Shown here piece after piece: positions 2,524-21,853 of a stretch of DNA of 38,858 nucleotides. The position numbers were made by a program, and so were the translations under genes. Origin of the DNA: Syntrophomonadaceae bacterium (GTDB lineage: Bacteria > Bacillota > Dethiobacteria > DTU022 > UBA8154); contig SLJK01000105.1 in assembly GCA_007135125.1 (NCBI GenBank), positions 1-38,858 of the forward strand, read 5' to 3'. The notes beneath the pieces are model-generated. The model saw nothing but the letters and a program-made list of their open reading frames with translations. It was not told the origin of the DNA and ran no database searches. Position 1 is the stretch's first letter. Every line of letters begins with the position of its first letter.

Positions 2524-3666
2524 ATGAAGATGAACACAGAACTGCAGAACTTTATCGAAAAGTATGATTTGTACGGTTGCATTCAATGCGGAAGATGTAC
2601 GGGGGGCTGTCCCGTAACCGTTCGCACAAATTTGAATGTGCGTCGTTTCGTTTATGATTCTATTGATGAGGATGCCTTGGAAGAACTTGCCAAATTACCT
2701 GAAATATGGGATTGTACTGCCTGCAGCACCTGTGCTGTAAGGTGCCCCAAGGGATTGAAGCCTTTAGAGGTATTGATTGGCCTGCGTGGCATATTGGTCT
2801 TGGAAGGACAGGTTGAGCCCACCGTCAGGGATGCCCTGGAGAGTATCTTTCGCGAAGGGAATCCGTGGAGCAAGGCGAGAGCTACGCGCTCCGACTGGAT
2901 GGAAGGGCTCGATGTAAAAGTAGCTGACCCCGAGACAGAGGTAGAAAACCTCATTTTTGTTTGCTGTACTGTGGTTTATGATCCCAGGGTACAGGTTACT
3001 GTAAAGAATCTTGTTAAAATACTGAACAAGGCAGACGTTGATTATGCCTTTGTGGGGGATGATGAGTCCTGCTGTGCCAGTGAGGCTTTTAACCTTGGCG
3101 AAGAAGAGCTTTTTGAGATGATGGTGGAAGATAATACGGAGCTTCTTAACAGCTTCAAAGCAAAAAGAATAGTTACTATTTCTCCTCACTGCTTTAATGC
3201 TTTTAAAAAGCAGTATCCCGATCTTAAGGCAGAAGTACTACATTATACTCAACTTATAGGTGAACTTTTGGAGGATAAAAAGCTGGAGTTTACCAAGGAA
3301 TTACCGCAGAAGATCGTCTTTCACGATCCCTGTTTCCTGGGCAAACAAAATGATGTTTACGACGAACCGCGCTTTGTTTTAAGCCAGATTCCAGGTGCCG
3401 AACTTGTAGAGTTCGAGCGCAACAAGGAGCGCAGTCTCTGCTGTGAAGGCGGAGGAGGAAAAATGTGGGTGGAATCAGATTCAAAGCTGGAGCGTCTTGC
3501 AGAAACACGTGTCAAAGATGCCCATGCACTTGGTGCCGATGTGCTTGCCGCAGCTTGTCCTTTCTGTATACTCACCTTGGATGATGCTCTTAAAGCGAAG
3601 GGGTTCGAGGAAGAAATGAAAGTGTCAGAGATACTGGAAATTATCGGAGATCTGTTGGAAGAGTAG
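2524..3666 (+). CDS. Soluble HdrD-like (fused HdrC-HdrB) Fe-S protein: N-terminal 4Fe-4S pair plus two CCG domains
   Basis: CIQCGRCTGGCP and CTACSTCAVRCP ferredoxin motifs; CCG-type motifs FVCC..ESCC..SPHC and HDPC..LCCEGGGG..ACPFC; no obvious transmembrane segment. Confidence 0.88.
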   Translation: MKMNTELQNFIEKYDLYGCIQCGRCTGGCPVTVRTNLNVRRFVYDSIDEDALEELAKLPEIWDCTACSTCAVRCPKGLKPLEVLIGLRGILVLEGQVEPTVRDALESIFREGNPWSKARATRSDWMEGLDVKVADPETEVENLIFVCCTVVYDPRVQVTVKNLVKILNKADVDYAFVGDDESCCASEAFNLGEEELFEMMVEDNTELLNSFKAKRIVTISPHCFNAFKKQYPDLKAEVLHYTQLIGELLEDKKLEFTKELPQKIVFHDPCFLGKQNDVYDEPRFVLSQIPGAELVEFERNKERSLCCEGGGGKMWVESDSKLERLAETRVKDAHALGADVLAAACPFCILTLDDALKAKGFEEEMKVSEILEIIGDLLEE

Positions 3667-3688
3667 CGGTTTTAGAAACTGCTGTAGC

Positions 3689-3713
3689 GGAACAGAAAGT
3701 TCCAGGTTTTTTT
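3689..3713 (+). terminator. Short hairpin plus T-tract, possible weak or partial terminator between hdrCB-like gene and etfB
   Basis: GGAAC-AGAAA-GTTCC stem followed closely by TTTTTTT. Confidence 0.35.
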
Positions 3714-3754
3714 AGAAAAAGTAATGCCAAATCGTTGTAGGAGGTGGAAAGTTT

Positions 3755-4543
3755 ATGAATACTTTTGTTTGTGTTAAAAGAGTTCCAGATACCTCTGAAG
3801 CAGAGGTAAAGGTTGATGCCACGGAGAAAGATGTTGATAGCAGTAAGTTTTCTTTTGATATTAATGATGCTGATAACTACGCCGTGGAAGAAGCAGTCCA
3901 GATCAAAGAGGCCCAGGGGGGCACTGTGCAGGTTCTGTGCTGTGGGCCACAGGATGCCGATATGATGATTCGCATGGCCCTGGCTAAGGGTGGCGATAGT
4001 GCTATGCGCATTGATGACCCGCGGATCAATTTTTCTGATCCTCTTCAGGTCGCAAAGGTTCTAGCTGCAGCCATTAAAGAACAAGAGTATGATCTGGTGT
4101 TGACCGGCTGTTGGGCTGATGATGATGGTTTTATGGCTGTTGGCGTGGCGCTTGCTGAGGAACTTGGCATACCGCATGCTGCTATGGTCAAGAAGGTTGA
4201 AGTAGAGGACGGAAAAGTTAAGGCGCACCGGGAACTTGAGGGTGGCATTTCAGAGGTGGTAGAGATTACACTGCCTGCCGTGCTTACAATCCAAACCGGT
4301 ATAAATGAACCTCGTTATGCACCAATAAGAGGGATCAGGCAGGCCCAAAAGAAAGAACTCAAAGTCTTGAAGTTGGATGATCTGGGAATTTCTGAAGAAG
4401 AAGTAAGTGAGGATAGTTCTTTGATAGAACTGAAACGATTTTACATTCCTGAAGTAGAGTCCAAAGCGGAAATTATCGAAGGTGAACCGGAAGAAAAAGC
4501 TGAAAAATTGGCTGAGAAGATGGTGAAAGGGGGTCTCATCTAA
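3755..4543 (+). CDS. etfB: Electron transfer flavoprotein beta subunit (divergent)
   Basis: VKRVPDT N-terminus, YAVEEAVQIKE, INEPRYAPIRGIRQAQKK signature; overlaps etfA start. Confidence 0.92.
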   Translation: MNTFVCVKRVPDTSEAEVKVDATEKDVDSSKFSFDINDADNYAVEEAVQIKEAQGGTVQVLCCGPQDADMMIRMALAKGGDSAMRIDDPRINFSDPLQVAKVLAAAIKEQEYDLVLTGCWADDDGFMAVGVALAEELGIPHAAMVKKVEVEDGKVKAHRELEGGISEVVEITLPAVLTIQTGINEPRYAPIRGIRQAQKKELKVLKLDDLGISEEEVSEDSSLIELKRFYIPEVESKAEIIEGEPEEKAEKLAEKMVKGGLI

Positions 4544-5517
4544 TGAGCAATATCTTTGTTTTGGTTGAACATCGTCAAGGAGAATTACGTGATATTACCC
4601 TGGAAATGCTCACGAAAGCTTCCCAGCTTGCCGAAAAGACAGGTGGAGAAACGGTAGCGCTTCTTCTGGGTAACGGTGTGGATTCTCATGCGGAAAAACT
4701 GACAGGATATAGTGATAAGGTTCTCTATATGGATGACCCTCTTTTTGAGGATTATAATTCCGAAAAGTACCAAAAAGCTTTGGTGGCGTTCTTTAAAGAG
4801 CAGAAGCCTTACCTGGTTATGATGGGGCATACAGCCCAGGGTGTTGACCTGGCCCCTGCCCTTGCGGTTGAACTGAAAATGCCTTTTGTAACGGATGTTA
4901 TTGATTTGGAATATGTTGACGATAAGCTGCAACCTTTGCGCCAATACTACGGGGGCAAGGTAAATGCTGAGTTTAGCTTCAAAGGTGAGCCTCCGTATCT
5001 GGTTACTTTTCGCGAAGCCACCCTGGAAGTTCCTGAGCCTTTCAAATCAGGAAAAGTGGAAAAAATCGACTCGCCCCTTAAAGAGGATATTGATTACCGT
5101 AAATTCCTGGAATACATTGAGGCAGAAGTTGGCGATGTTGATATAACCCAGTCAGAAATTCTGGTAGCTGTTGGACGTGGTGTTAAGGAAGAAAAAAATA
5201 TGGCCATGATCGAAGAATTGGCCAGCGCCATTAAAGCTGATATCTGCGCTTCACGCGCCGCCACTGATGCGGGCTGGCTTCCCCATGACCGCCAGGTGGG
5301 TACTTCCGGCAAGACGGTAAAGCCCAAGCTATATATTGCGATCGGTATTTCAGGGGCTTTCCAGCACCTCGCTGGCATGAAAGGTGCCAAGACTATTATT
5401 GCTATTAATAAAGACCCGGAAGCCCCCATTTTTGCCGAAGCTGATTACGCAATTATTGACGACCTGTTTAAAGTGGTTCCCAAATTGACGGAAAAACTGC
5501 AAGAGCTGCGGGGTTAA
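4543..5517 (+). CDS. etfA: Electron transfer flavoprotein alpha subunit
   Basis: FAD-binding signature SRAATDAGW..RQVGTSGKTVKPKLYIAIGISGAFQHLAGM..AINKDPEAPIFAEADY. Confidence 0.95.
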   Translation: MSNIFVLVEHRQGELRDITLEMLTKASQLAEKTGGETVALLLGNGVDSHAEKLTGYSDKVLYMDDPLFEDYNSEKYQKALVAFFKEQKPYLVMMGHTAQGVDLAPALAVELKMPFVTDVIDLEYVDDKLQPLRQYYGGKVNAEFSFKGEPPYLVTFREATLEVPEPFKSGKVEKIDSPLKEDIDYRKFLEYIEAEVGDVDITQSEILVAVGRGVKEEKNMAMIEELASAIKADICASRAATDAGWLPHDRQVGTSGKTVKPKLYIAIGISGAFQHLAGMKGAKTIIAINKDPEAPIFAEADYAIIDDLFKVVPKLTEKLQELRG

Positions 5518-5620
5518 GAATTAGCAGTCGCCTTATATTTTGATTGTTATAGGGGAAAAACTGACAGAGTATATACAACTGATTTTGCAGTTAAACCATG
5601 TTGGAGGATGAAAGAAGCCT

Positions 5621-7624
5621 ATGAACAATAATAAACCTAAGATTGGTGTGTATGTTTGTCACTGTGGCGTTAATATCGCCAAGACAGTTGATATTGAGGC
5701 TGTACGGAGTTATGCCGAAAGTTTACCGTATGTCAAGGTAGCTCGCAACTATTCTTATATGTGTTCAGATCCGGGGCAGCTTCTTATTAAAGAAGATATT
5801 GCCGAGGAAGGATTGAATCGCATTGTAGTAGCTTCCTGTTCGCCCCGTATGCACGAACTCACTTTTCGTAAAACCCTGGCTGAAGGTGGTTTGAACCCGT
5901 ATTACCTGGAGATGGCCAATATAAGGGAACAATGCTCCTGGGTTCATGAGGATTCTGAAGAGGCCACTTCCAAGGCAAGAAAATTGGTTGCAGCGGCAGT
6001 AGCCAAGGCCAGATTACTGGAACCGCTGGAAGAAAAAGAGGTGGAGGTAGAGCCCGCTACACTCATAATTGGCGGGGGAATTGCCGGGATACAGGCTGCC
6101 TTGGATATCGCCGGGGCAGGCTTCAAGGTCTATGTGGTAGAAAAAACACCCTCTGTTGGCGGAAAAATGTCCCAGCTTGACAAAACATTCCCCACCCTTG
6201 ACTGCTCTGCTTGCATTCTTACTCCCAAAATGGTAGATGTGGCCAGCCATCCTAACATCGAGCTTTTAACCTATTCCCAGGTGGAGGATGTTCAGGGTTA
6301 TGTGGGTAATTTTGAAGTAAAAGTGCGCAAAAAAGCACGCTATGTAGATATTGACAAATGTACTGGTTGTGGTATTTGTGCACAGGAGTGTCGTCTGGCA
6401 GGAAGGATACCAAGCGAGTACGAAGCAGGGATAGGTAAAAGGGGTGCCATCTACCTTCCTTTTCCACAGGCTGTTCCTGCCAAGTTTACTATTGACCCCG
6501 AGAGCTGTCTCTATTTGACCAGAGGAAAATGCGGGAAAGAGCCCAAATGCGTAGAGCATTGTTCTTTGGGAGCTATAGATTTTGAGCAGCAGGATGAATT
6601 TGTAGAATTTAAAGTGGGAGCCATTATTGTAGCTACCGGTTACGACGTTTTTGATGCTTCGCGGAAGCCGGAGTATGGCTACCAGGACTATGATAATGTT
6701 CTAACTTCATTGGAGTTGGAAAGGCTTGTGTCTGCTTCCGGTCCAACGGGAGGAGAAATTGTTTTGGGGAAAGGAGAAGAGGCCTTTGTCCCCAAGGAAG
6801 TCGCTTTTATACAGTGTGTTGGCTCACGGGACGCGAGCTGCGGAAATGAATACTGTTCCCGAGTGTGCTGCATGTATACGGCCAAGCTTGCCCACCTTAT
6901 AAAAGAGAAAGTGCCTGATTCTAACGTGAGGGTTTACTATATGGATGTCAGGGCTTTTGGCAAGGGTTTTGAAGAGTTTTATGACCGGGTTCGCCGGGAA
7001 GGGGTGCGTTATATCCGTGGCAATCCTTCCGAGGTTTTTAAACGAGATGGTAAGTTGGTGGTCAAGGCAGAGGACACTTTAACCGCTAAACCCCTGGAGG
7101 ACGAAGTTGATATGGTGGTTCTTTCCGTGGGGTTGGAACCACGCAAAGATACCAGGGAGATAATCGATTTGCTTAGGCTTTCCCAGTCATCCGACCGTTT
7201 TTATCTGGAAGCCCATCCCAAGCTGGCCCCTGTAGATACTGCCACTGATGGGGTTTATCTGGCTGGTTGCGCTCAGGGACCCAAAGATATCCCTGATACT
7301 GTGGCCCAGGCAAAAGGTGCCGCATCATCGGCCTTGATTCTTCTTGCCAGCGGCAAAGTTAATATACAGGCCCAGATTTCTGTAGTGAACGAGGCTACAT
7401 GCCGTGGCTGTGGTTATTGTGTCGAAATATGTCCGTACGGAGCCATTGAAATGGGGGAAGTTAACCGTTTTGGCCATATTGTTTCGGTGGCCAAAGTTAA
7501 TGAAGCTCTCTGCAAGGGTTGCGGTGCCTGTGTGGCCGGTTGCTTCTCCGGTTCTATTCAGCAAAAGTCTTTTAAAGACAGACAGATTCTGCCGCAAATT
7601 GCTGTACTGGGGGTTGTAAAATGA
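5621..7624 (+). CDS. hdrA: Heterodisulfide reductase subunit A-like flavoprotein (HdrA)
   Basis: FAD motif IIGGGIAGIQAALDIA, CTGCGICAQEC, AFIQCVGSRD...YCSRVCCMY, two C-terminal 4Fe-4S motifs CRGCGYCVEICP and CKGCGACVAGC. Confidence 0.95.
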   Translation: MNNNKPKIGVYVCHCGVNIAKTVDIEAVRSYAESLPYVKVARNYSYMCSDPGQLLIKEDIAEEGLNRIVVASCSPRMHELTFRKTLAEGGLNPYYLEMANIREQCSWVHEDSEEATSKARKLVAAAVAKARLLEPLEEKEVEVEPATLIIGGGIAGIQAALDIAGAGFKVYVVEKTPSVGGKMSQLDKTFPTLDCSACILTPKMVDVASHPNIELLTYSQVEDVQGYVGNFEVKVRKKARYVDIDKCTGCGICAQECRLAGRIPSEYEAGIGKRGAIYLPFPQAVPAKFTIDPESCLYLTRGKCGKEPKCVEHCSLGAIDFEQQDEFVEFKVGAIIVATGYDVFDASRKPEYGYQDYDNVLTSLELERLVSASGPTGGEIVLGKGEEAFVPKEVAFIQCVGSRDASCGNEYCSRVCCMYTAKLAHLIKEKVPDSNVRVYYMDVRAFGKGFEEFYDRVRREGVRYIRGNPSEVFKRDGKLVVKAEDTLTAKPLEDEVDMVVLSVGLEPRKDTREIIDLLRLSQSSDRFYLEAHPKLAPVDTATDGVYLAGCAQGPKDIPDTVAQAKGAASSALILLASGKVNIQAQISVVNEATCRGCGYCVEICPYGAIEMGEVNRFGHIVSVAKVNEALCKGCGACVAGCFSGSIQQKSFKDRQILPQIAVLGVVK

Positions 7625-8052
7625 GCGAGCAATATGAACCCAACATAGTAGCCTTTTTGTGCAATTGGTGCTCTTATGCAGGAGCAGACCTGGCCGGTAC
7701 CAGTAGGGTGCACTATACCTCGAATCTTAATGTGATAAGGGTAATGTGTTCAGGCCGTGTAAATCCTCTTTTTGCTGTAAATGCTTTGCAGCAGGGAGCT
7801 GATGGCGTTCTGGTTTCTGGCTGCCATCCCGGAGATTGTCATTACATGGAAGGAAATTACTATGCGCGTCGCAGGTTTGCCCTGATGCGTGAGTTATTGG
7901 AATTTATTGGGGTGGAGCCCGAGCGCTTCAATATGAGCTGGGTTTCCGCTTCTGAGGGTGCCAAATGGAAAGATGTGGTAGAGGAAGTGGTCGAAAAAGC
8001 AAGGAAAGTTGGACCCTTTGACCAGTTCCGTAGAAATAAGATAAACTGGTAG
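7621..8052 (+). CDS. flxD: MvhD/FlxD-family [2Fe-2S] electron transfer protein
   Basis: FLCNWCSYAGADLAGTSR, MCSGRV, SGCHPGDCHYMEGNYYARRR motifs; start overlaps hdrA stop. Confidence 0.92.
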   Translation: MSEQYEPNIVAFLCNWCSYAGADLAGTSRVHYTSNLNVIRVMCSGRVNPLFAVNALQQGADGVLVSGCHPGDCHYMEGNYYARRRFALMRELLEFIGVEPERFNMSWVSASEGAKWKDVVEEVVEKARKVGPFDQFRRNKINW

Positions 8053-8066
8053 AGGAGGAGGATCGC

Positions 8067-9050
8067 TTGGTAGACCTGGAAAAACTTAGAAATGCAGCAA
8101 AAGAGATCGTCTCACAGGACGATGTTAAGTATCTAATCGGCTGGAGAGATGGAACTTTTGGTTTTCGTATATCTCCTCATTTTATGGAGAGCCCTGAAGA
8201 GGCCGACAAGCTTATCTTTTCCCCGTTGTGCACAAATAATCTGGCGACCTATCTTACCATGGCCGAGAAACTTCCGATTCCAAGGGGAGAAGAGCCAGAC
8301 AGACGCAAGGTAGCTGTGATGGTTAAAGGCTGTGACAGCCGTGCTGTTGTTCAGCAGCTGGTAGAACAAGGGACAAATAGGGAAGAGGTATATATTATCG
8401 GTTGTCCCTGTGAGGGCGTGGTAGATATTAAGAAAATTGAGAAAAAGTTCCCTGATGTTTTGGAGTCAGTGGAGGCTCGTTGGGAAAATGGACAAATCGT
8501 CTTGAAACTGCCGGGAGGTGAGCAATCTTTTCCACGTGAAGAGGTATTAGCCCAAAAATGTCTTACCTGTCGCTATCCCAATCCTGTGCTGGCTGATACT
8601 GTGCTCTGGGACGAAGTAGAAGTACTGGGTGTTGAGGAATACGAGGACGTTAAAGAACTAGAAGGCATGGATTCTAAGGAGAGGTGGGCTTACTGGCAGG
8701 ACAAGATCTCGAATTGTATTAGATGCTATTCTTGCCGTAATGTGTGCCCCATGTGTTATTGTGAGGACTGTGTGTTGGAGCGTTTAAATCCCACCTGGAT
8801 GTTTCGCTCGGTCAACGTTGCAGAGAATACAGCTTATCAACTGGCCAGAGCCTTTCATTTGGCGGGGCGCTGTATTGAATGTGGTGAATGTGAGCGGGTG
8901 TGCCCAGTGGATATTCCCCTTATGAAGCTTAACAGGAAGTTGTATAAAGAGGTTCAAGAGGACTTTCAATTTGAACCCGGGCTGGATCCCGAGTCCAAAC
9001 CACTGCAGGCCAGTTACCGACCTGACGATAAAGAAGACTTCATTCTCTAG
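8067..9050 (+). CDS. 4Fe-4S dicluster Fe-S protein, FlxC-like subunit
   Basis: CIRCYSCRNVCPMCYC and CIECGECERVCPVDIPL; VKGCDSRAV and CLTCRYPNP Cys-rich motifs; position in flx cluster. Exact B/C subunit naming uncertain. Confidence 0.8.
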   Translation: MVDLEKLRNAAKEIVSQDDVKYLIGWRDGTFGFRISPHFMESPEEADKLIFSPLCTNNLATYLTMAEKLPIPRGEEPDRRKVAVMVKGCDSRAVVQQLVEQGTNREEVYIIGCPCEGVVDIKKIEKKFPDVLESVEARWENGQIVLKLPGGEQSFPREEVLAQKCLTCRYPNPVLADTVLWDEVEVLGVEEYEDVKELEGMDSKERWAYWQDKISNCIRCYSCRNVCPMCYCEDCVLERLNPTWMFRSVNVAENTAYQLARAFHLAGRCIECGECERVCPVDIPLMKLNRKLYKEVQEDFQFEPGLDPESKPLQASYRPDDKEDFIL

Positions 9051-9052
9051 AG

Positions 9053-10075
9053 GTGGATACTATGGATAGTATGATATTAAGTAAAGAAAAGATGAAAGAC
9101 TTTGTCGCAGCATTGGGGCAACAAAAGCTTTATGCTCCGCAAAAAGAAGGAGAAACCCTCAGGTTTTCACTGCTGGGAGAAGAGGATGTTCCCGAGCTGG
9201 ATTTTTCTAACACTACTGTTCCTCCCAAAGATGTCGTATTTCCTCAGACGGAGACCTTGTACCAGTATGAACTTGGTGGTACAGATATGAAAGAGCCTGA
9301 AGGTGGGGAAGAAGGAGCCGTTATGGGCATCAGGCCCTGTGATGCACGTGCCATGTCAATTGTAGACAGTTTGTTTTCCTGGGATGTAGACGATCCTTAC
9401 TACCTGGAACGGCGTTCGGGTAATACATTTATTGGACTTGCCTGTTTGGAGCCTTGTGTTAACTGTTTTTGTACTTCACTGGGTGGAGCTCCCGCCTCTA
9501 CAGAAGGCCTCGATGCTTTAATGACGGACTTGGAAGATAAATACCTGGTCAAGCCTCTCACAGAAAAGGGTGAAAAGCTTTTCCAAAAGGCTGCTGATGT
9601 CCTGGAAAAAGCGACAGAAGAAGATGTAGCTTCTGCTGAAAAGCTGCACGAGGAAGCTGCCGCAAAAGTTGCCAGGAATGTCGATACGCAGGGTATTCCA
9701 GAAAAGTTGCCCGAGCTCTGGGAGGCCGATCTCTGGAAGGATGTTTCCAATTCCTGCCTGGGATGCGGAATATGCACTTACCTGTGCCCCACTTGCCACT
9801 GTTTTGACATTCAAGATGAGGTAGAAGGTTTTGAAGGACGTCGGTGTCGAATGTGGGATTCTTGCATGTTTGGTGAATATACTCTGCATGCGTCAGGCCA
9901 TAACCCCCGACCTTCTCGCCGTGAGAGAACCAGAAACAGGATTAACCACAAGTATTCTTATTACGTTGATAAGTTTGGAACTATTGCATGTGTAGGCTGC
10001 GGCAGATGTATAGATTTCTGCCCGGTTAATATTGATATTCTAAACATTTTAACCCAGGTTAAGGAGGCATTATGA
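9053..10075 (+). CDS. 4Fe-4S dicluster protein, AsrA/hydrogenase-beta-like, FlxB-like subunit
   Basis: GIRPCDARAMSIVDSLF, EPCVNCFCTSLGGAP, CLGCGICTYLCPTCHCFD, CVGCGRCIDFCPVNIDI; likely start is the ATG at 9053, 9062 or 9071. Confidence 0.8.
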   Translation: MDTMDSMILSKEKMKDFVAALGQQKLYAPQKEGETLRFSLLGEEDVPELDFSNTTVPPKDVVFPQTETLYQYELGGTDMKEPEGGEEGAVMGIRPCDARAMSIVDSLFSWDVDDPYYLERRSGNTFIGLACLEPCVNCFCTSLGGAPASTEGLDALMTDLEDKYLVKPLTEKGEKLFQKAADVLEKATEEDVASAEKLHEEAAAKVARNVDTQGIPEKLPELWEADLWKDVSNSCLGCGICTYLCPTCHCFDIQDEVEGFEGRRCRMWDSCMFGEYTLHASGHNPRPSRRERTRNRINHKYSYYVDKFGTIACVGCGRCIDFCPVNIDILNILTQVKEAL

Positions 10076-10920
10076 AAGAGAACGGTAATCCCTATAAGCC
10101 TTATATCGCAACTGTTGAAGACACCTGGTATGAAACTTACGGTGATCGCAGCATAAAAACTTTGAAGGTCGTATTTGATGACGAAAAAATTAGGGAAAGC
10201 TGGGAGCACCGTCCTGGCCAATGTGCCATGATTGGCTTGCTGGGAGTGGGTGAAAGCATGATTTCTATTTCTTGTTCACCTACCGAGGGCAAATTTTTAA
10301 GGTTTTCCGTCATGCGCATGGGCGCAGTAACCAGTGCTCTTCATGAGCTTGAACCCGGCGATAAGATGACTGTGCGGGGTCCATATGGAAACAGTTTTCC
10401 TGTGGACGAGTGGAAAGGTAAGAAAATCATTACCATTGGCGGAGGTATTGGGCAGGCCCCCTTGAGGCCGATTATCGAATATGTTCGCGCTAATGCAGAT
10501 AACTATCAGGATTTGACCGTAATTTACGGAGCCAGGACCTCTGGCGACCTCTGTTTTAAGGGTGAGTTTGAGGAAATGAGTGCTGATAAAATAGCTGAAT
10601 GTCACCTCTCGGTCGATATAGAAGAGGAGGGATGGCCTCACTTCGTTGGATTTGTCCCATCCTTGTTGATGGAAGTTAATCCTTCGCCCGAGAATACTAT
10701 TGCTATTACCTGTGGGCCTCCAGTTATGATTAACTTCGTTCTCCAAAATTTGAAGAAACTAAATTTTGAGGATGACCAGATCTATACCACCCTGGAAAAC
10801 AGAATGAAGTGCGGGTTTGGAAAGTGTGGACGCTGTAATGTGGGTAACCTTTATGTTTGTAAAGATGGTCCCGTATTTAACTATGCGACTCTGAAAGCTA
10901 TCCCTGAAGCCTTTGCCTAA
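10072..10920 (+). CDS. flxA: FAD/NAD(P)-binding oxidoreductase, AsrB/FlxA-like
   Basis: Ferredoxin reductase-like fold: RGPYGNSFP, GGGIGQAPLRPII, TCGPPVMI, C-terminal MKCGFGKCGRCNVGNLYVCKDGPVF 2Fe-2S motif. Confidence 0.88.
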   Translation: MKENGNPYKPYIATVEDTWYETYGDRSIKTLKVVFDDEKIRESWEHRPGQCAMIGLLGVGESMISISCSPTEGKFLRFSVMRMGAVTSALHELEPGDKMTVRGPYGNSFPVDEWKGKKIITIGGGIGQAPLRPIIEYVRANADNYQDLTVIYGARTSGDLCFKGEFEEMSADKIAECHLSVDIEEEGWPHFVGFVPSLLMEVNPSPENTIAITCGPPVMINFVLQNLKKLNFEDDQIYTTLENRMKCGFGKCGRCNVGNLYVCKDGPVFNYATLKAIPEAFA

Positions 10921-11013
10921 CTAAACCTTTTACTTATACTATTGCTGGAAGAAAGGTTTAAGCTCTGTGGGAGGTATACCTATCCGCTGGTATGTTAATT
11001 AGGGGCGAGTATA

Positions 11014-11056
11014 TCAGGGGGGCTGAGTTATTTGGCCCCCTGACTATATATTTTTT
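11014..11056 (+). terminator. Rho-independent terminator of the Hdr/Etf/Flx operon
   Basis: TCAGGGGG...CCCCCTGA hairpin followed by a T-rich run (CTATATATTTTTT). Confidence 0.85.
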
Positions 11057-11123
11057 GCTCTCTTATTCAAGTAAATAGAATTGTTTTGTTGAGTAGGTTG
11101 TGCGAGGAAGAAGGGTTAATGCC

Positions 11124-11594
11124 ATGGAGCATTTTGGTGAAGTTGTTGAGCAGGTAGAGGGCCATAGAGCCCGTGTTAAAATCCGGCACCAAGTTTCCTG
11201 CAGTACCTGTGGACGCTGTGGTGGGGTTTTCGGCAATCCTGAGAAAGAAAACACCTCTTTGGTGGAAGTCATAGACCCCATCGGAGCCAAGAAAGGGCAA
11301 CTGGTGAAATTGATAACCAAGGATTCGGAGGTGCTTCTGGCAGCCTTTCTGCTTTATATATTGCCGCTGCTAGGACTGTTAGGTGGGCTTTTTGCCGGTC
11401 GGGCTCTGGCTCCAAATTTGGGCCTGGAAGGCAGTCCAGATTTATGGGGTTTTGGTGTGGGCCTCATAGTAATGGTATTGGTTTTTTTAATTTTAAGATC
11501 GCAGGAAAAAAATATGAACCGTGGCAAGCGTTTTAAGGCTGAAATTGCGGAAGTTGTTAATGAAGAAGTAATTCCAGAAGAACTTCGTCCTTGA
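11124..11594 (+). CDS. RseC/MucC-family (SoxR-reducing system type) Cys-rich membrane protein
   Basis: N-terminal EVVEQVEGHRARVKIRHQVSCSTCGRCG, then two hydrophobic segments (LLAAFLLYILPLLGLLGGLFAG; LWGFGVGLIVMVLVFLIL). The ATG at 11124 has a better RBS than the tracked GTG at 11100. Confidence 0.75.
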   Translation: MEHFGEVVEQVEGHRARVKIRHQVSCSTCGRCGGVFGNPEKENTSLVEVIDPIGAKKGQLVKLITKDSEVLLAAFLLYILPLLGLLGGLFAGRALAPNLGLEGSPDLWGFGVGLIVMVLVFLILRSQEKNMNRGKRFKAEIAEVVNEEVIPEELRP

Positions 11595-11803: not shown

Positions 11804-13834
11804 ATGGACTCTGTAAATTTATATCCTAATCATGTTAACCCGCTATTGTATGAATCTGAGAGGCCGCTGCCGAAGGAGGTCGCTGTTATTGGGGCAGGCA
11901 CTATTGGTCCTGATATTGCATATTACCTGAAGAGCTCCAGGCCCGAGTGTCGCCTTATACTGGTTGATATCGTGGAAAAACAGTTAAAAAAGGCCGAGGA
12001 GAGGATTAACGGATATATACAGAAAGCTCTTGATAAAAAGAAGATGAAGCCAGAAAATGCCACAGCTGTGGCTGAGAATATTGTCTATACAACTGACTAT
12101 GAAGACTTGAAAAATGCAGACCTGGTGATTGAAGCGGCAACGGAGAATCTTGATATTAAAAGAAAGATTGTTGACATGATTGAGGGTATTGTCCGGGAAG
12201 ATACAATCATAACCTCCAATACCAGTTCCATCCCGGCGGAGAGAATTTTTGCCGAGGCCAGATTGCCCTCCAGAACTACTATTACCCACTTTTTCGCTCC
12301 TGCCTGGCGTAATCCGGCGGTAGAGGTTATTACCTGGAATGGGGTTGACCAAAGTATTGTCGACTACCTGAGGTGGATGTTTTGTATAACCGGCAAGGTT
12401 CCTTTTGTCTCCCGGGATAAGCTGTGTTTTATTTTGAACCGTATCTTTGAAAACTGGTGCAATGACGCCGTACTTTTACTTGATGAAAATATTACTGCCC
12501 GCAAGGTGGACCAGGTATCCCAGGAATTTGTTGCCGCCGGGCCCTTCTTCGTCTTAAATATGACCAGTGGCAATTTGATAATCGCGGAGACTAACACCCA
12601 AAAAATGCTTGAAGAAGGCGAGCATTATAAGCCTTCATATCTTTTGCGTTCAGTTAACACCTGGTTAGCCTTGAACCCGGGCGAAAAAGAAGAGGTGGAA
12701 CCGCAAACAGCTGATGTGGTGCGTAATAATCTCCTGGGTGTCCTCTTTTCACAGTCTTTTGATATAATCAACAAAGGCATCGGGACCCTGGAAGATCTAA
12801 ACCTGGGGTGTGTAATAGGTCTTGGCTTCCGCAAAGGTCCTTTTGATATAATGAGAGATTTAGGAGAAGAAAAAACAAAAGAGGTTATTTCCGGTTTCCA
12901 GAAAAAGCGCCCCGGAATGCCCGGGATTGAGGAGGATTACATCCATTACCAGAACTTTAAAAGAAGCATACTGGTTGATGAAATAGATGGAGTTAAGATT
13001 ATAACTATCAGGCGTCCTCATATGATGAACGCTTTAAACGATGAAGTAAATGCTGAGATCCTGGAGGTTTTAAAGGAAAACGAGTCAAATCCTTCAATTA
13101 AGGGTTTTGTCATTACCGGTTATGGAGACCAAGCGTTCTGCGCAGGTGCGGAAATAGGCAAATTTACAGAAGTACTGGGAGATTTTGAAGCTTCAGTGCA
13201 GTACTCCAGGGATTGCTCGCAACTGCTTCGCTATCTTGATTCGTCTCCCAAGCCTGTAGTGGCTGCTATCAATGGAATCGCACTTGGCGGCGGATTTGAA
13301 TTGGCTGTGCGCTGTCACAAGCTGGTTGCGGCAGAAAAAGCATGGTTCCAGCTTCCGGAAGTAACCCTTGGCATTCTCCCTGGAATCGGGGGGATAGTTG
13401 TCCCTTACCGCAGATGGCCCGAGGGCTCCAAAACCTTCCACAACATGATCCGCCAGGCTGCCAGACTGCCTGCAAAAGAAGCTTTTGAACTGGGTGTCGT
13501 TTCTGCTCTTGAAGATGATTACCTCAGCCTTATCCAGAAAGCGGTACAGGAAGTACAAGAGATGGCGGGTAAGCCCATTCCCAGAATTCCAGACAAACCG
13601 GTCGACATAGCCCCTCTTGAGCCTTTGGAGACCCCCAAGGCAGGTAAGCTGCAGCTAAGCAAAGAAGTCGTCGACATAATTGACAAAACCATTCAAGAAG
13701 CTGCATCCCAACCTTCCTTTGAGGAGGCACTGGAGGTCAATTATAAGGCTTCTGGCGAAGTTGCCTGCACAGAGAGTGCCCGGGAAGGAATCTCTGCATT
13801 TGTAGAGAAAAGGACTCCTGAGTTTAATAAATAA
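11804..13834 (+). CDS. Bifunctional 3-hydroxyacyl-CoA dehydrogenase (N-term) / enoyl-CoA hydratase (C-term) fusion
   Basis: Rossmann motif VIGAGTIG, SNTSSIPA, THFFAPAWRNPAVEVI; crotonase motifs AFCAGAEI, AAINGIALGGGFELA, QLPEVTLGILPGIGG. Confidence 0.88.
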   Translation: MDSVNLYPNHVNPLLYESERPLPKEVAVIGAGTIGPDIAYYLKSSRPECRLILVDIVEKQLKKAEERINGYIQKALDKKKMKPENATAVAENIVYTTDYEDLKNADLVIEAATENLDIKRKIVDMIEGIVREDTIITSNTSSIPAERIFAEARLPSRTTITHFFAPAWRNPAVEVITWNGVDQSIVDYLRWMFCITGKVPFVSRDKLCFILNRIFENWCNDAVLLLDENITARKVDQVSQEFVAAGPFFVLNMTSGNLIIAETNTQKMLEEGEHYKPSYLLRSVNTWLALNPGEKEEVEPQTADVVRNNLLGVLFSQSFDIINKGIGTLEDLNLGCVIGLGFRKGPFDIMRDLGEEKTKEVISGFQKKRPGMPGIEEDYIHYQNFKRSILVDEIDGVKIITIRRPHMMNALNDEVNAEILEVLKENESNPSIKGFVITGYGDQAFCAGAEIGKFTEVLGDFEASVQYSRDCSQLLRYLDSSPKPVVAAINGIALGGGFELAVRCHKLVAAEKAWFQLPEVTLGILPGIGGIVVPYRRWPEGSKTFHNMIRQAARLPAKEAFELGVVSALEDDYLSLIQKAVQEVQEMAGKPIPRIPDKPVDIAPLEPLETPKAGKLQLSKEVVDIIDKTIQEAASQPSFEEALEVNYKASGEVACTESAREGISAFVEKRTPEFNK

Positions 13835-18553: not shown

Positions 18554-20035
18554 ATGCGCTGTGGAAAGGATTTTTATATGCCTTTTGAAGTAGCTTCTGG
18601 TTTATTAAAAGCCCTTTACTCCCCTCTTTTCTATCAATATGTGAAGGGTGAGGAAAGGGTTTTTCAGTTATACAATGGTGACTTTCGAAGCATAGACTCT
18701 TTCAAAAAAAGGGCTCTTTTTTTGAAGAAAAAAAGATTTCCCCGGGGAACTGACCGACTCCTGGCAGAGTCCGGTAGCATTGCCTTGCAAAATATTAACA
18801 GAGAAAAAGAGCAGAAAGATGATAAACCATGTTATGTTATTACCGGCCAGCAGCCGGGTATACTGGGAGGGGCTCTCTATGTTCCTTACAAGGTGCTAAC
18901 GGCTATAAACCTGGCCAACGAAATGCAGGAGTGCTTGGGCATGACTGTCCGCCCTCTATTTTGGGTGGCAGGCGAGGATCATAACCTTTTTGGTATTACC
19001 AGAACTTTTATTCCACCGCCGGATAGGGGTGGAGCTCTAAGACTTCGGTTGGAGATGGAGCATTTTGGCCTTCCAGCGGGAGAGATCAAGGTTCCGCCTG
19101 AAAAAATGATAAAATTAATTAATAAACTGGAAAAGCTTACAGAAGTCAAGGAAAAAAATGAAAACTATGATTTCTCTGTCCTAAACACACTTCGCAGATT
19201 ATCTGTCACAGAACATACCCTAGGTAGTTGGTTTATAGCTGTTATGTCCTACCTTTTCGAGGGACATGGACTTTATTTTGTAGATCCTCTCCTAGCCAAC
19301 CGTAAAAAGTTTTATACAGAATTATTATTGCAGGTAGTTGAAGAAGGCCCGATTCTTCACTCGCTCATCGCGATTGCTGAAAGAAAGATAGCTGCTGAAG
19401 GGTTCATACCACAGGTGCGGAGAAGTGGAAAAGAGTCTTTGCTCATGATAGTTTGGAAAGGAAGAAGGCAGGTGTTGTGGAGGGAGGGAGAAAGCTTTTT
19501 TACTTCTAACAAGGATTTCTTTATTACGAAAAGAAATTTAAAAACTTTAATCAGGGAAAGACCTGAGCTTTTCAGTCCTAACGTTTTAATGCGACCCATT
19601 TTCCAGGACAGCATATTTGCTAACCTGGCTTACGTTTGCGGTCCAGGAGAGCTAGGTTATATGGCTCAGATCAAGGAAGTTTATGAACATTTCGGGCTAA
19701 AAATGCCGCTGTTGTATCCACGTAAAGGGGTGACATTAGTCGAACCCAAGCTGAGAAGACACCTGGAATATTATAATATAAGCGCTGAAGAGGCTATTTT
19801 GCAGGCTCAAAATAAACCAAGACGAAAGAGAAGAGGCAAAGAAGACCCCCGTTTTGAAGTGTTACGAGAGAACCTGTGGCCGCGGAGCAGGCCGCAGGAA
19901 AGAGTTTTTAATCTTTTTCCTTTTCTGGTAAGGGAGGGATTTTCCTTCTGGGAAAATTTTTGCTATCAGTTTGCTGCCCTGCCGGCAGGACATTACTTTT
20001 ATTCATGGGGAGAGGGCGAGAATCGTGGAGGTTGA
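18554..20035 (+). CDS. bshC: Putative bacillithiol biosynthesis cysteine-adding enzyme BshC
   Basis: YVITGQQPGILGGALYVPYKVLTAINLANE, RPLFWVAGEDHNL, RPIFQDSIFANLAYVCGPGELGYMAQIKEVYEHFG; next to bshB1 and bshA. Confidence 0.92.
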   Translation: MRCGKDFYMPFEVASGLLKALYSPLFYQYVKGEERVFQLYNGDFRSIDSFKKRALFLKKKRFPRGTDRLLAESGSIALQNINREKEQKDDKPCYVITGQQPGILGGALYVPYKVLTAINLANEMQECLGMTVRPLFWVAGEDHNLFGITRTFIPPPDRGGALRLRLEMEHFGLPAGEIKVPPEKMIKLINKLEKLTEVKEKNENYDFSVLNTLRRLSVTEHTLGSWFIAVMSYLFEGHGLYFVDPLLANRKKFYTELLLQVVEEGPILHSLIAIAERKIAAEGFIPQVRRSGKESLLMIVWKGRRQVLWREGESFFTSNKDFFITKRNLKTLIRERPELFSPNVLMRPIFQDSIFANLAYVCGPGELGYMAQIKEVYEHFGLKMPLLYPRKGVTLVEPKLRRHLEYYNISAEEAILQAQNKPRRKRRGKEDPRFEVLRENLWPRSRPQERVFNLFPFLVREGFSFWENFCYQFAALPAGHYFYSWGEGENRGG

Positions 20036-20744
20036 TATTTTAGCTTTTGGTGCGCATCCAGATGATGTGGAATGTGGTGCGGGGGGCATTTTAGCCAGAC
20101 ATGCAGCCGAAGGTTACAGGTGCGGGATTGTGGATCTGACAGCGGGTGAAATGTCTACCAATGGGACTGTCGAAGAAAGAAAAGCAGAGGCTTCAAAAGC
20201 AGCAGAGATCTTAAACTGTCCGATAAGAAAATGTTTGAACCTTCCTGACGCACACCTTTCGGTAGAACAAGAGGGCGTTTATAGTGTTATTAAGGTTTTA
20301 AGGGAATTTAAGCCCCGCATTGTTCTTGCTCCTTTCTACAGGGACGATCGTCACCCTGACCACGGAGTTGCTGGTGAGTTGGTTAGAAGGGCTGTGTACC
20401 TTGCCGGTTTGAAAAGTTTGCCCCTGGAGGGAGACGCATTCCGTCCGCAAAAATTGTTCTTTTTTTTGCTTTATGTAAATCGCGATCCAGATCTAATTGT
20501 AGATGTTTCGGATTATTACCAAATTAAGGAAGCAGCAATCAGGGCACATCAGACACAGTTTCAGCAACACTGTTATGGAGGAGAGGGGCCCCTTAGCCTG
20601 GTTAATGATTCTTTTTTTCTACGTTTTATTAGCAGCCGGGACCGGTATTTTGGATCTTTAATTGGTGCTTCTTGCGGAGAAGGAGTGGTGCCTTATGGTA
20701 AATTAGCTGTTGCGGATCTTTGTGGTGAGGTGGGGTTCAAATGA
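20025..20744 (+). CDS. bshB1: Bacillithiol biosynthesis deacetylase (PIG-L/LmbE family)
   Basis: AFGAHPDDVECGAGGILA, DLTAGEMSTNGTVEERKAEA, RHPDH; GTG at 20025 is the likely start, overlapping bshC. Confidence 0.92.
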   Translation: MEVDILAFGAHPDDVECGAGGILARHAAEGYRCGIVDLTAGEMSTNGTVEERKAEASKAAEILNCPIRKCLNLPDAHLSVEQEGVYSVIKVLREFKPRIVLAPFYRDDRHPDHGVAGELVRRAVYLAGLKSLPLEGDAFRPQKLFFFLLYVNRDPDLIVDVSDYYQIKEAAIRAHQTQFQQHCYGGEGPLSLVNDSFFLRFISSRDRYFGSLIGASCGEGVVPYGKLAVADLCGEVGFK

Positions 20745-21853
20745 AAATTGCTATGGTTTGCTTCCCAGGCCAGGGGGGTAGCGGTGTTATTGCTACTGAG
20801 CTGGGAAGGGAGCTTTCCCGAAAAGGGCACGAGATTCATATGATTTCTTACGAAAGGCCTTTTCGTCTTGAACAGAATGAAGAGATTTTTTTTCATAAGG
20901 TACAGATGAACGATTATCCTCTTTTTCCTTATCCTCTTTATACTCTTGATCTTTCTGCTAAAATAGCAGATGTTCTACGAAGTTTTGCTCCTCAGATTAT
21001 TCATGCCCATTATGTAATCCCTAACACCATAGCAGCATACCTGGCGAAAGAGCTTTATCAAGGAGTTGCTCCCAAACTTGTTACAACTATTCATGGAACC
21101 GATATTTCTATTTGGGGACAGGACCACCAACTGCGTCCCCTGATTCGTTATGGCTTGGAGAAAAGTGATGCAATTACTGCAGTTTCTCACACCTTGAAAG
21201 ATGAGGCACATTTAAATACGGGGATTAATAATATACAGGTTATTTATAATTTTGTTAATGAAAGTCTTTTCCAATACCACGGCAACGAAATGCTTCGCTT
21301 GCAGCTTGCTCCCGGCGGTGAAAAAGTCATCCTCCATATTTCGAATTTCCGGCCTGTCAAAAGAGTGCCCGATCTTATGCGTGCATTTGCTATGTTGCTT
21401 GAAGACGTGCAGGATGTTGTCCTGGTGCTGGTAGGTGATGGCGTTGAGAGGCTAAAGACCATTGAATTGGCGCGGGTTCTTGGAATAGAAGAAAAAGTTT
21501 GTTTTGTGGGGAACGTGCCCCACCCTGGGCCTTATCTTGCCGTTTCCCATTTGCTAGCTCTTTCTTCAGAAAAAGAAAGTTTTGGACTGGTTGCCTTGGA
21601 GGCCATGTCCTGTGGTAAGCCTGTTGTAGCTACAAGGACCGGTGGTCTGAGTGAACTGGTAGAGGACGGAAGGACAGGTTTTTTGACTCCAGTGGGAGAT
21701 ATAAATAGACTGTATGTTTCCATGAAAAGGATCTTGCAGGATGAAACATTATACCGTGTTTTTGCCAGCAACTCCAGGGAAAAGGCTGCCAAGTTTCTCT
21801 CCAGTATCATAATTCCATCTTATGAAAGGTTGTATACTTCCTTGCTGGAGTGA
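20741..21853 (+). CDS. bshA: N-acetyl-alpha-D-glucosaminyl L-malate synthase (GT4 glycosyltransferase)
   Basis: [48 protein letters not shown]-x7-[28 protein letters not shown]. Confidence 0.93.

Follow-up and report, generated by a model that had tools for sequence, protein, structure and literature searches.

Gene order and transcription signals

We analysed contig SLJK01000105.1 (38,858 nt; 'the window' is this whole stretch), which belongs to a metagenome-assembled genome (MAG) of 2.0 Mb in 172 contigs, 94% complete, referred to below as the host genome. Eight co-directional open reading frames (ORFs) of the window, at 2524–10920 on the forward strand, are arranged in the order hdrCB-etfB-etfA-hdrA-flxDCBA and encode an HdrCB fusion, the two subunits of an electron-transferring flavoprotein (ETF), HdrA and a four-subunit Flx module (Table 1). 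An initial annotation of this DNA had described eight tightly packed co-directional genes ending in a strong terminator. All eight genes, with their coordinates, strand and families, were recovered, but the packing is less uniform than described: the EtfB/EtfA, HdrA/FlxD and FlxDCBA junctions are overlaps or gaps of at most 14 bases, whereas 88 bp separate HdrCB from EtfB and 103 bp separate EtfA from HdrA. Judged from the sequence, one transcript for all eight genes is likely. The hairpin past flxA was confirmed and, with a T-rich stretch after it, makes a credible terminator; positions 10995–11070 have a folding energy of −27.3 kcal/mol (z −3.6), which 1 of 200 shuffles equalled. A consensus terminator scan of the window did not have this hairpin among its listed sites, probably because of its large loop. 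Domain-family scans found no acyl-CoA dehydrogenase (ACAD), hydrogenase or DsrC among the cluster proteins, as had been annotated. A small hairpin with a T-run (GGAACAGAAAGTTCCAGGTTTTTTT) is present at 3689–3713 (forward strand) in the hdrCB-etfB gap, and could be an attenuator that reduces expression of the downstream genes.

Table 1. Features of the hdrCB-etfBA-hdrA-flxDCBA cluster, in window coordinates.
Feature	Position	Strand	Basis
HdrCB, soluble EtfD-like ETF dehydrogenase module (predicted)	2524..3666	+	Pfam CCG x2 + Fer4_8 (4Fe-4S dicluster)
EtfB, canonical (AMP-type), predicted	3755..4543	+	ETF domain; bifurcating motifs absent; best PDB match 1o94
EtfA with FAD domain, without N-terminal ferredoxin domain	4543..5517	+	ETF + ETF_alpha domains
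HdrA, predicted bifurcating flavin site	5621..7624	+	NF040770 HdrA2 E 1.5e-270; PDB 5odc E 2.6e-249
FlxD, MvhD/FlpD family, 2Fe-2S link between HdrA and NADH module	7621..8052	+	PF02662 E 6e-54
FlxC, 4Fe-4S protein, TTG start	8067..9050	+	Fer4_17 and related; position conserved
FlxB, HydB/AsrA-like 4Fe-4S protein, GTG start	9053..10075	+	Fer4_22; NF040829 E 4.5e-66
FlxA, FAD/NAD(P)-binding + 2Fe-2S subunit (NADH site)	10072..10920	+	NAD_binding_1, DHODB_Fe-S_bind; NF006220 E 5.8e-70
Terminator-like hairpin 3' of flxA	11001..11062	+	fold of 10995-11070

HdrCB is predicted to be an EtfD-type module without a membrane half

HdrCB (380 aa) has two 4Fe-4S cubane motifs, C19–C29 and C64–C74, and two CCG domains, S-P-H222-C223 and C270/C306C307/C345/C348. 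Its best PDB match is mycobacterial EtfD (9ojn, E 3.6e-52), with HdrC and HdrB following at 1e-13 and 1e-6. The predicted structure (pLDDT 87.9, pTM 0.89) resembles EtfD in fold (TMq 0.82) more closely than it does HdrB chains (about 0.5), a difference that is partly one of length since HdrB corresponds to the CCG part only; the model in turn spans only part of 9ojn (TMt 0.44). HdrCB contains no hydrophobic segment, the top 19-residue Kyte–Doolittle mean being 1.65, and therefore has no membrane domain.

In EtfD, His583 completes the noncubane cluster D2 and renders it non-catalytic, and the D1 site has lost one of the Hdr cysteines (PMC13083937). His222 of the window HdrCB aligns with His583, and C270/C306/C307/C345/C348 align with C637/672/673/709/712, which are all five D2 cysteines; one D1 (CCG1) cysteine position, Cys581, is Ser. 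The His222 equivalent was found in 32/32 evaluable HdrCB homologues, at a place where true HdrB reads CNGC. In a phylogenetic tree, the window HdrCB falls in a clade of soluble ETF-linked proteins (support 100/98) that spans Bacillota, Actinomycetota, archaea and others; the membrane EtfD/EMO proteins form another clade (99/97), and an aldehyde-oxidoreductase-linked paralogue also lies outside. From sequence and model together, HdrCB is predicted to be an EtfD-type ETF dehydrogenase that lacks the membrane half, and not a catalytic unit of the heterodisulfide-reductase type.

A more conventional possibility is that the locus encodes a disulfide-reducing FlxABCD–HdrABC complex, with a thiol-disulfide, for example that of bacillithiol, as the substrate of HdrCB; etfBA would then be no more than co-transcribed and would serve an ACAD independently of the complex. 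The acceptor proposed for Flx–Hdr complexes is DsrC or a disulfide (Ramos et al. 2015, cited in PMC6687939 and PMC7082340), and bacillithiol genes, bshC-bshB1-bshA, are present in the same window at 18554–21853. However, the bsh genes do not adjoin the cluster, and etfBA stands between hdrCB and flxA in every genome in which the locus is unsplit. The EtfD-type histidine site, the serine at a CCG1 cysteine position and a sequence and fold much nearer to EtfD than to HdrB all disfavour a role for HdrCB as a heterodisulfide or bacillithiol-disulfide reductase, and we regard this explanation as improbable.

The paralogue in the tree is a second HdrCB, 39% identical and with the same SPHC motif, at locus L122 (G018:C8:318000-330000), where the gene order is aldehyde:ferredoxin oxidoreductase, 4Fe-4S protein, HdrCB, FdhD, a 931-aa HdrA-like protein, FlpD-like and NuoE-like. 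That cluster resembles the electron modules of class II benzoyl-CoA reductases. HdrCB matches at about 36–42% identity occur in about 25 genomes of the host's class, Dethiobacteria.

By sequence, the ETF is of the canonical type and HdrA retains its cofactor sites

Bifurcating EtfB proteins are marked by three motifs, DGDTAQVGP for the bifurcating FAD (b-FAD), RxFxG for NAD, and SPT (PMC9232219), and Gly123 has been called invariant among bifurcating ETFs (PMC12630350). At the three motif positions the window EtfB reads DDGFMAVGV, PRINF and SLI; none of DGDTAQVGP, RxFxG, SPT and Gly123 occurs in the EtfB of any cluster member. The closest solved EtfB is that of the canonical Methylophilus ETF (1o94; 171 bits, versus 121 for CarD). 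EtfA does not have the N-terminal ferredoxin domain of CarE/LctC, and its FAD domain is readily recognized (PF00766, E 4e-35), so that the features of a canonical ETF, a FAD domain in EtfA and no b-FAD site in EtfB, are both present. A structure search with the EtfB model returned canonical and bifurcating EtfB with interleaved E-values and did not tell the two types apart. Because EtfB carries no published mark of bifurcation, the ETF should be a plain, non-bifurcating carrier. The host genome has one EtfA only, within its 94% completeness.

A scheme in which the ETF itself bifurcates, as in Bcd–EtfAB, with Hdr–Flx as a separate machine, could appeal to the frequency of bifurcating EtfAB among anaerobic Bacillota and to a different EtfA (a frame of about 400 aa) in class genomes without the cluster (G075, G076 and G089). 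We rejected a bifurcating ETF since every published EtfB mark is missing; the lack of a ferredoxin domain in EtfA and the bit scores for Methylophilus and CarD also speak against it, and the scheme as a whole is very improbable indeed. The proposal of a bifurcating supercomplex in the initial annotation must be modified to this extent, the bifurcating flavin being most likely that of HdrA.

HdrA shares 59.7% identity with its Methanothermococcus counterpart (5odc) and keeps 27 of the 31 cysteines of that protein, including all eight of the C-terminal ferredoxin-like domain (double 4Fe-4S). The FAD fold and all Fe-S cysteine groups are present, and hdrA adjoins a complete flxDCBA set. By these sequence features, the branches that lead to ferredoxin and to NADH in the known Flx–Hdr complex are intact here, and with an ETF of non-bifurcating type the flavin of HdrA is most likely the bifurcating site.

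The only other FlpD in the host genome is part of a NADPH-oxidoreductase/4Fe-4S/FlpD fusion of more than 620 aa (L034; G000:C105:1937-2314 region), which adjoins a phenylacetate-CoA ligase-like gene.

The gene order is conserved across the class and recurs in Actinomycetota

We surveyed 98 genomes of the class and found EtfA of the window type in 70. HdrCB lies 0.83–0.95 kb upstream of EtfA in 64/64 genomes in which the two share a contig; in the others it is on another contig (n = 2) or has no full match (n = 4), and in two of these four, G077 and G078, the contig stops short of the expected site. In each of the 50 genomes with EtfA and FlxA on one contig, FlxA is encoded 4.49–4.96 kb downstream on the same strand; the remainder have the two on different contigs (n = 17) or no FlxA (n = 3). 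In a search of 60 relatives, EtfA was present in nearly all, and HdrCB, EtfB, EtfA and HdrA adjoin one another in all of the relatives' first loci that were read (n = 29). A sample of the phylum gave 9 positives among 399 genomes, all of them class members.

Outside the phylum, two Actinomycetota MAGs, Ca. Geothermincola secundus (L041) and Ca. Solincola sediminis (L042), have the complete eight-gene order. HdrA, HdrCB and EtfBA without FlxCBA occur in Bathyarchaeota (L043, L047), a proteobacterial MAG (L049) and a further bacterium (L088), and HdrCB–EtfBA in Ca. Syntrophoarchaeum (L045). The arrangement is far beyond chance, given its conservation both in the class and in another phylum. The adjacency of etfBA to flx-hdr, which had first been noticed in this genome, is thus found by neighbourhood search in others, and the idea that the cluster is peculiar to this genome is ruled out. 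The initial annotation had suggested that related clusters may already be described in syntrophic or acetogenic Firmicutes; in the records examined, the nearest carriers are uncultured Bacillota MAGs, and neither known acetogens nor syntrophs of the classical kind.

In the two Bathyarchaeota loci, an HdrA–FlpD fusion of about 785 aa adjoins EtfBA and HdrCB is encoded on the other strand, and Ca. Methanolliviera (L048) has an EtfA-HdrA-HdrCB-like order. By their sequences these three loci are archaeal variants of the same ETF–Hdr pairing.

Acyl-CoA dehydrogenases co-occur with the cluster

ACAD genes are present in 70/70 cluster genomes. None of the 18 class genomes that lack ACAD has an ETF match, seven have ACAD with a different ETF and no cluster, and ACAD without an ETF match is confined to three class MAGs that are 64–86% complete. 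The association of cluster and ACAD gave p 6e-13 in Fisher's exact test, in which relatedness is ignored; within one family (f6), however, the presence of both switches together between close relatives. Linkage is direct in two loci of other phyla: ACAD precedes hdrA-hdrCB-etfBA in the proteobacterial MAG, and directly follows etfA in Ca. Syntrophoarchaeum. Many members of the order have 4–14 ACAD genes. In L115 (G000:C96; 1920–11110), the ACAD of the host lies amid genes for xanthine-dehydrogenase-type subunits, a PadR-type regulator, a sigma-54 PAS regulator and a TRAP transporter.

The host genome also encodes one FAD-oxidase_C protein, a stand-alone LctD-like 2-hydroxyacid dehydrogenase (L117, 817–2244; G000:C30), whose best PDB match is LctD of the Acetobacterium woodii Ldh–EtfAB (354 bits, versus 258 for glycolate oxidase). 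From its sequence, this protein is a possible second donor to the single ETF. A variant of our preferred explanation would make it the main donor in the host in place of ACAD. That it is the only protein of its family there, with LctD as its closest solved relative, is in keeping with this variant, but the presence of ACAD in every cluster genome and the ACAD linkage in other phyla, with ACAD as the enzyme profiled, make it unlikely.

Quinone-dependent routes in the host

Electrons from acyl-CoA oxidation have a high potential, about −10 to −125 mV, and the known routes by which anaerobes dispose of them lead to quinone via EtfD/EMO or FixC, or through a bifurcating ETF. In the 94% recovered of the host genome we found no membrane EtfD paralogue, the window HdrCB being the only HdrCB at E<1e-20, and no UbiA-family quinone prenyltransferase above the cut-off. 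The single weak UbiA match crosses three stop codons, and the DNA there reads as an unrelated HD-domain protein. The argument from a lack of quinone holds only for the host and about nine other cluster genomes that are at least 90% complete, for example G029 (99% complete, with 8 ACAD matches).

A 2026 study reported that a biogas genome, MAG9, encodes a complete beta-oxidation pathway together with Etf, mvhD and HdrABC but lacks quinones and FixC; its authors found no electron route and saw "no obvious alternative mechanism" (PMC13422317). The cluster is a concrete, testable candidate for such a route and would be the kind of answer to seek in MAG9.

Proposed mechanism and energetics

We consider it probable that the cluster encodes a soluble ETF:ferredoxin:NAD oxidoreductase. 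The sequences show the genes and their conserved order, the types of ETF and HdrCB, the intact cluster sites of HdrA and Flx, and the co-occurrence with ACAD; the complex, the electron path, bifurcation at HdrA and the direction in vivo are what we infer. ACAD, and perhaps also the LctD-like dehydrogenase, would charge the ETF, and the reduced ETF would pass its electrons to the EtfD-like HdrCB and thence to the FAD of HdrA. Electrons of reduced ferredoxin would enter via the C-terminal clusters of HdrA, join the others at the HdrA flavin and leave with them as NADH through FlxD–FlxCBA, an electron confurcation. In the reverse mode, NADH would reduce ferredoxin and, via the ETF, an enoyl-CoA (bifurcation). 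The ETF thus probably replaces a disulfide as partner of HdrA, and HdrA rather than the ETF probably bifurcates, because EtfB is of the non-bifurcating type, HdrCB is EtfD-like and the HdrA cysteines are kept. The eight products may form a physical supercomplex. The path first sketched for this locus, an HdrB-like module exchanging electrons with the ETF, NADH at FlxA and ferredoxin at HdrA, agrees with the EtfD-like HdrCB, the conserved neighbourhood and the ACAD linkage; the description of HdrCB as Hdr-type had to be given up.

With potentials of −125 mV for acyl-CoA (PMC7082340) and of −280 mV for NADH and −500 mV for ferredoxin (PMC9304861), our arithmetic gives about −12 kJ/mol for confurcation. 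With standard values (−10, −320 and −420 mV) it gives a cost of about 40 kJ/mol for the oxidation of butyryl-CoA by this route, in agreement with PMC5861303. Since the energetics change sign with the potentials used, the direction would be set by the conditions in the cell.

Several points weigh against a dedicated complex that runs in the oxidative direction without quinone. Under standard conditions, confurcation from butyryl-CoA is put at about +25 to +40 kJ/mol (PMC11543930, PMC5861303), so that the reductive direction might prevail. EtfBA may be no bound subunit but a freely diffusing carrier. The host has a single ACAD, on a contig other than that of the cluster. The 16 members of the soluble HdrCB clade were collected via EtfA, so that their linkage to ETF is partly by construction. 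The histidine signature also occurs in the L122 paralogue and thus marks electron-transfer HdrCB generally, which weakens it as proof of an ETF partner. Finally, a UbiA-family match above the cut-off is present in 71/98 class genomes, and for this reason we withdrew a general lack of quinones across the class as support.

The same complex might work mainly as a reductase, with NADH reducing ferredoxin while ETF and ACAD reduce an enoyl-CoA sink. This is a variant of the confurcating mechanism, and our confidence in the two overlaps. It is favoured under standard conditions, by about −40 kJ/mol for crotonyl-CoA (PMC5861303), and the best NCBIfam match of the sole host ACAD is an acryloyl-CoA reductase, below the cut-off. 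The numerous ACAD genes in many members of the order suit catabolic oxidation, however, and the TRAP transporter and sigma-54 regulator beside the host ACAD suit substrate uptake; a mainly reductive role is accordingly possible but doubtful.

Relation to known systems

The cluster resembles FlxABCD–HdrABC of Desulfovibrio vulgaris (Ramos et al. 2015, cited in PMC6687939) in that HdrA and a FlxD-C-B-A NADH module are encoded together. In that account HdrB and HdrC are separate proteins acting on a disulfide or DsrC and there are no ETF genes, whereas here a fused EtfD-like HdrCB, with SPHC in place of the CNGC of catalytic HdrB, is accompanied by etfBA. By analogy, the cluster may work like a Flx–Hdr complex in which the disulfide branch has been swapped for an ETF branch. 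With EtfD of mycobacteria (PMC13083937, PDB 9ojn) and the EMO/DUF224 Fe-S oxidoreductases of syntrophs it shares a CCG/4Fe-4S half, which in HdrCB too would take electrons from a canonical ETF, and a histidine-bearing CCG site; EtfD, however, sits in the membrane and passes electrons to menaquinone through heme b, whereas HdrCB has no membrane domain, belongs to a separate clade and is encoded beside HdrA–Flx. The overall reaction would match that of Bcd–EtfAB, CarCDE and LctBCD (acyl-CoA or lactate, ferredoxin and NAD(H)), but in those enzymes the FAD of EtfB bifurcates, whereas in the window the motifs for FAD and NAD are missing from EtfB and bifurcation is likely to take place at HdrA. We did not assign the cluster to FlxABCD–HdrABC, EtfD/EMO or bifurcating EtfAB because a catalytic HdrB, a membrane part and a b-FAD site, respectively, are missing.

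HdrABC–MvhADG and HdrABC–Fdh of methanogens are similar in HdrA, with the shared cysteines described above, and in the link from HdrA to FlxD (MvhD); they differ in having H2 or formate as donor, CoM-S-S-CoB as acceptor and a catalytic HdrB with bridging cysteines. The AOR–Hdr cluster at L122 has the same broad type of HdrCB, probably a wire from a dedicated oxidoreductase to HdrA, but its partner is a tungsten aldehyde oxidoreductase and not an ETF, and the HdrCB proteins are only about 39% identical.

An ETF–Hdr complex is not named in the open-access literature that we searched, subscription reviews lying outside it, and ETF-linked HdrA clusters may have been mentioned before. As related ideas besides EtfD/EMO, HdrF with etfBA has been noted in Desulfobacterium (PMC2702500), and floxABCD-hdrABC in syntrophs (PMC6687939). 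We lean, with moderate confidence, towards the view that this is a further type of flavin-based bifurcating/confurcating enzyme, in which the high-potential partner of HdrA is a canonical ETF instead of the disulfide, the two being connected by a soluble EtfD-like HdrCB. It would be present in Bacillota, Actinomycetota and, without FlxCBA, in Bathyarchaeota and alkane-oxidising archaea, for the quinone-free re-oxidation of acyl-CoA electrons. If so, it would explain how some quinone-less microbes sustain the acyl-CoA oxidation step, and it would show that HdrA modules can be re-plugged to new redox partners by swapping the HdrCB adaptor alone.

Other genes of the window

The cluster is preceded by selB (302–2197) and followed by a gene for a small RseC/MucC-like membrane protein (11100–11594, forward strand), a relative of which also trails the cluster in L035, L036 and L039. 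The next gene described (11804–13834, forward strand) encodes a fusion of 3-hydroxyacyl-CoA dehydrogenase (N-terminal) and enoyl-CoA hydratase (C-terminal), the reverse of the domain order in FadB. We dropped this FadB-like fusion as a part of the cluster, since it is absent from the cluster neighbourhood in L035 and L036. Lysine/diaminopimelate genes lie farther downstream in the window. The three bsh genes are on the forward strand, and the bshB1 ORF (TTG start at 19971) overlaps the end of bshC.

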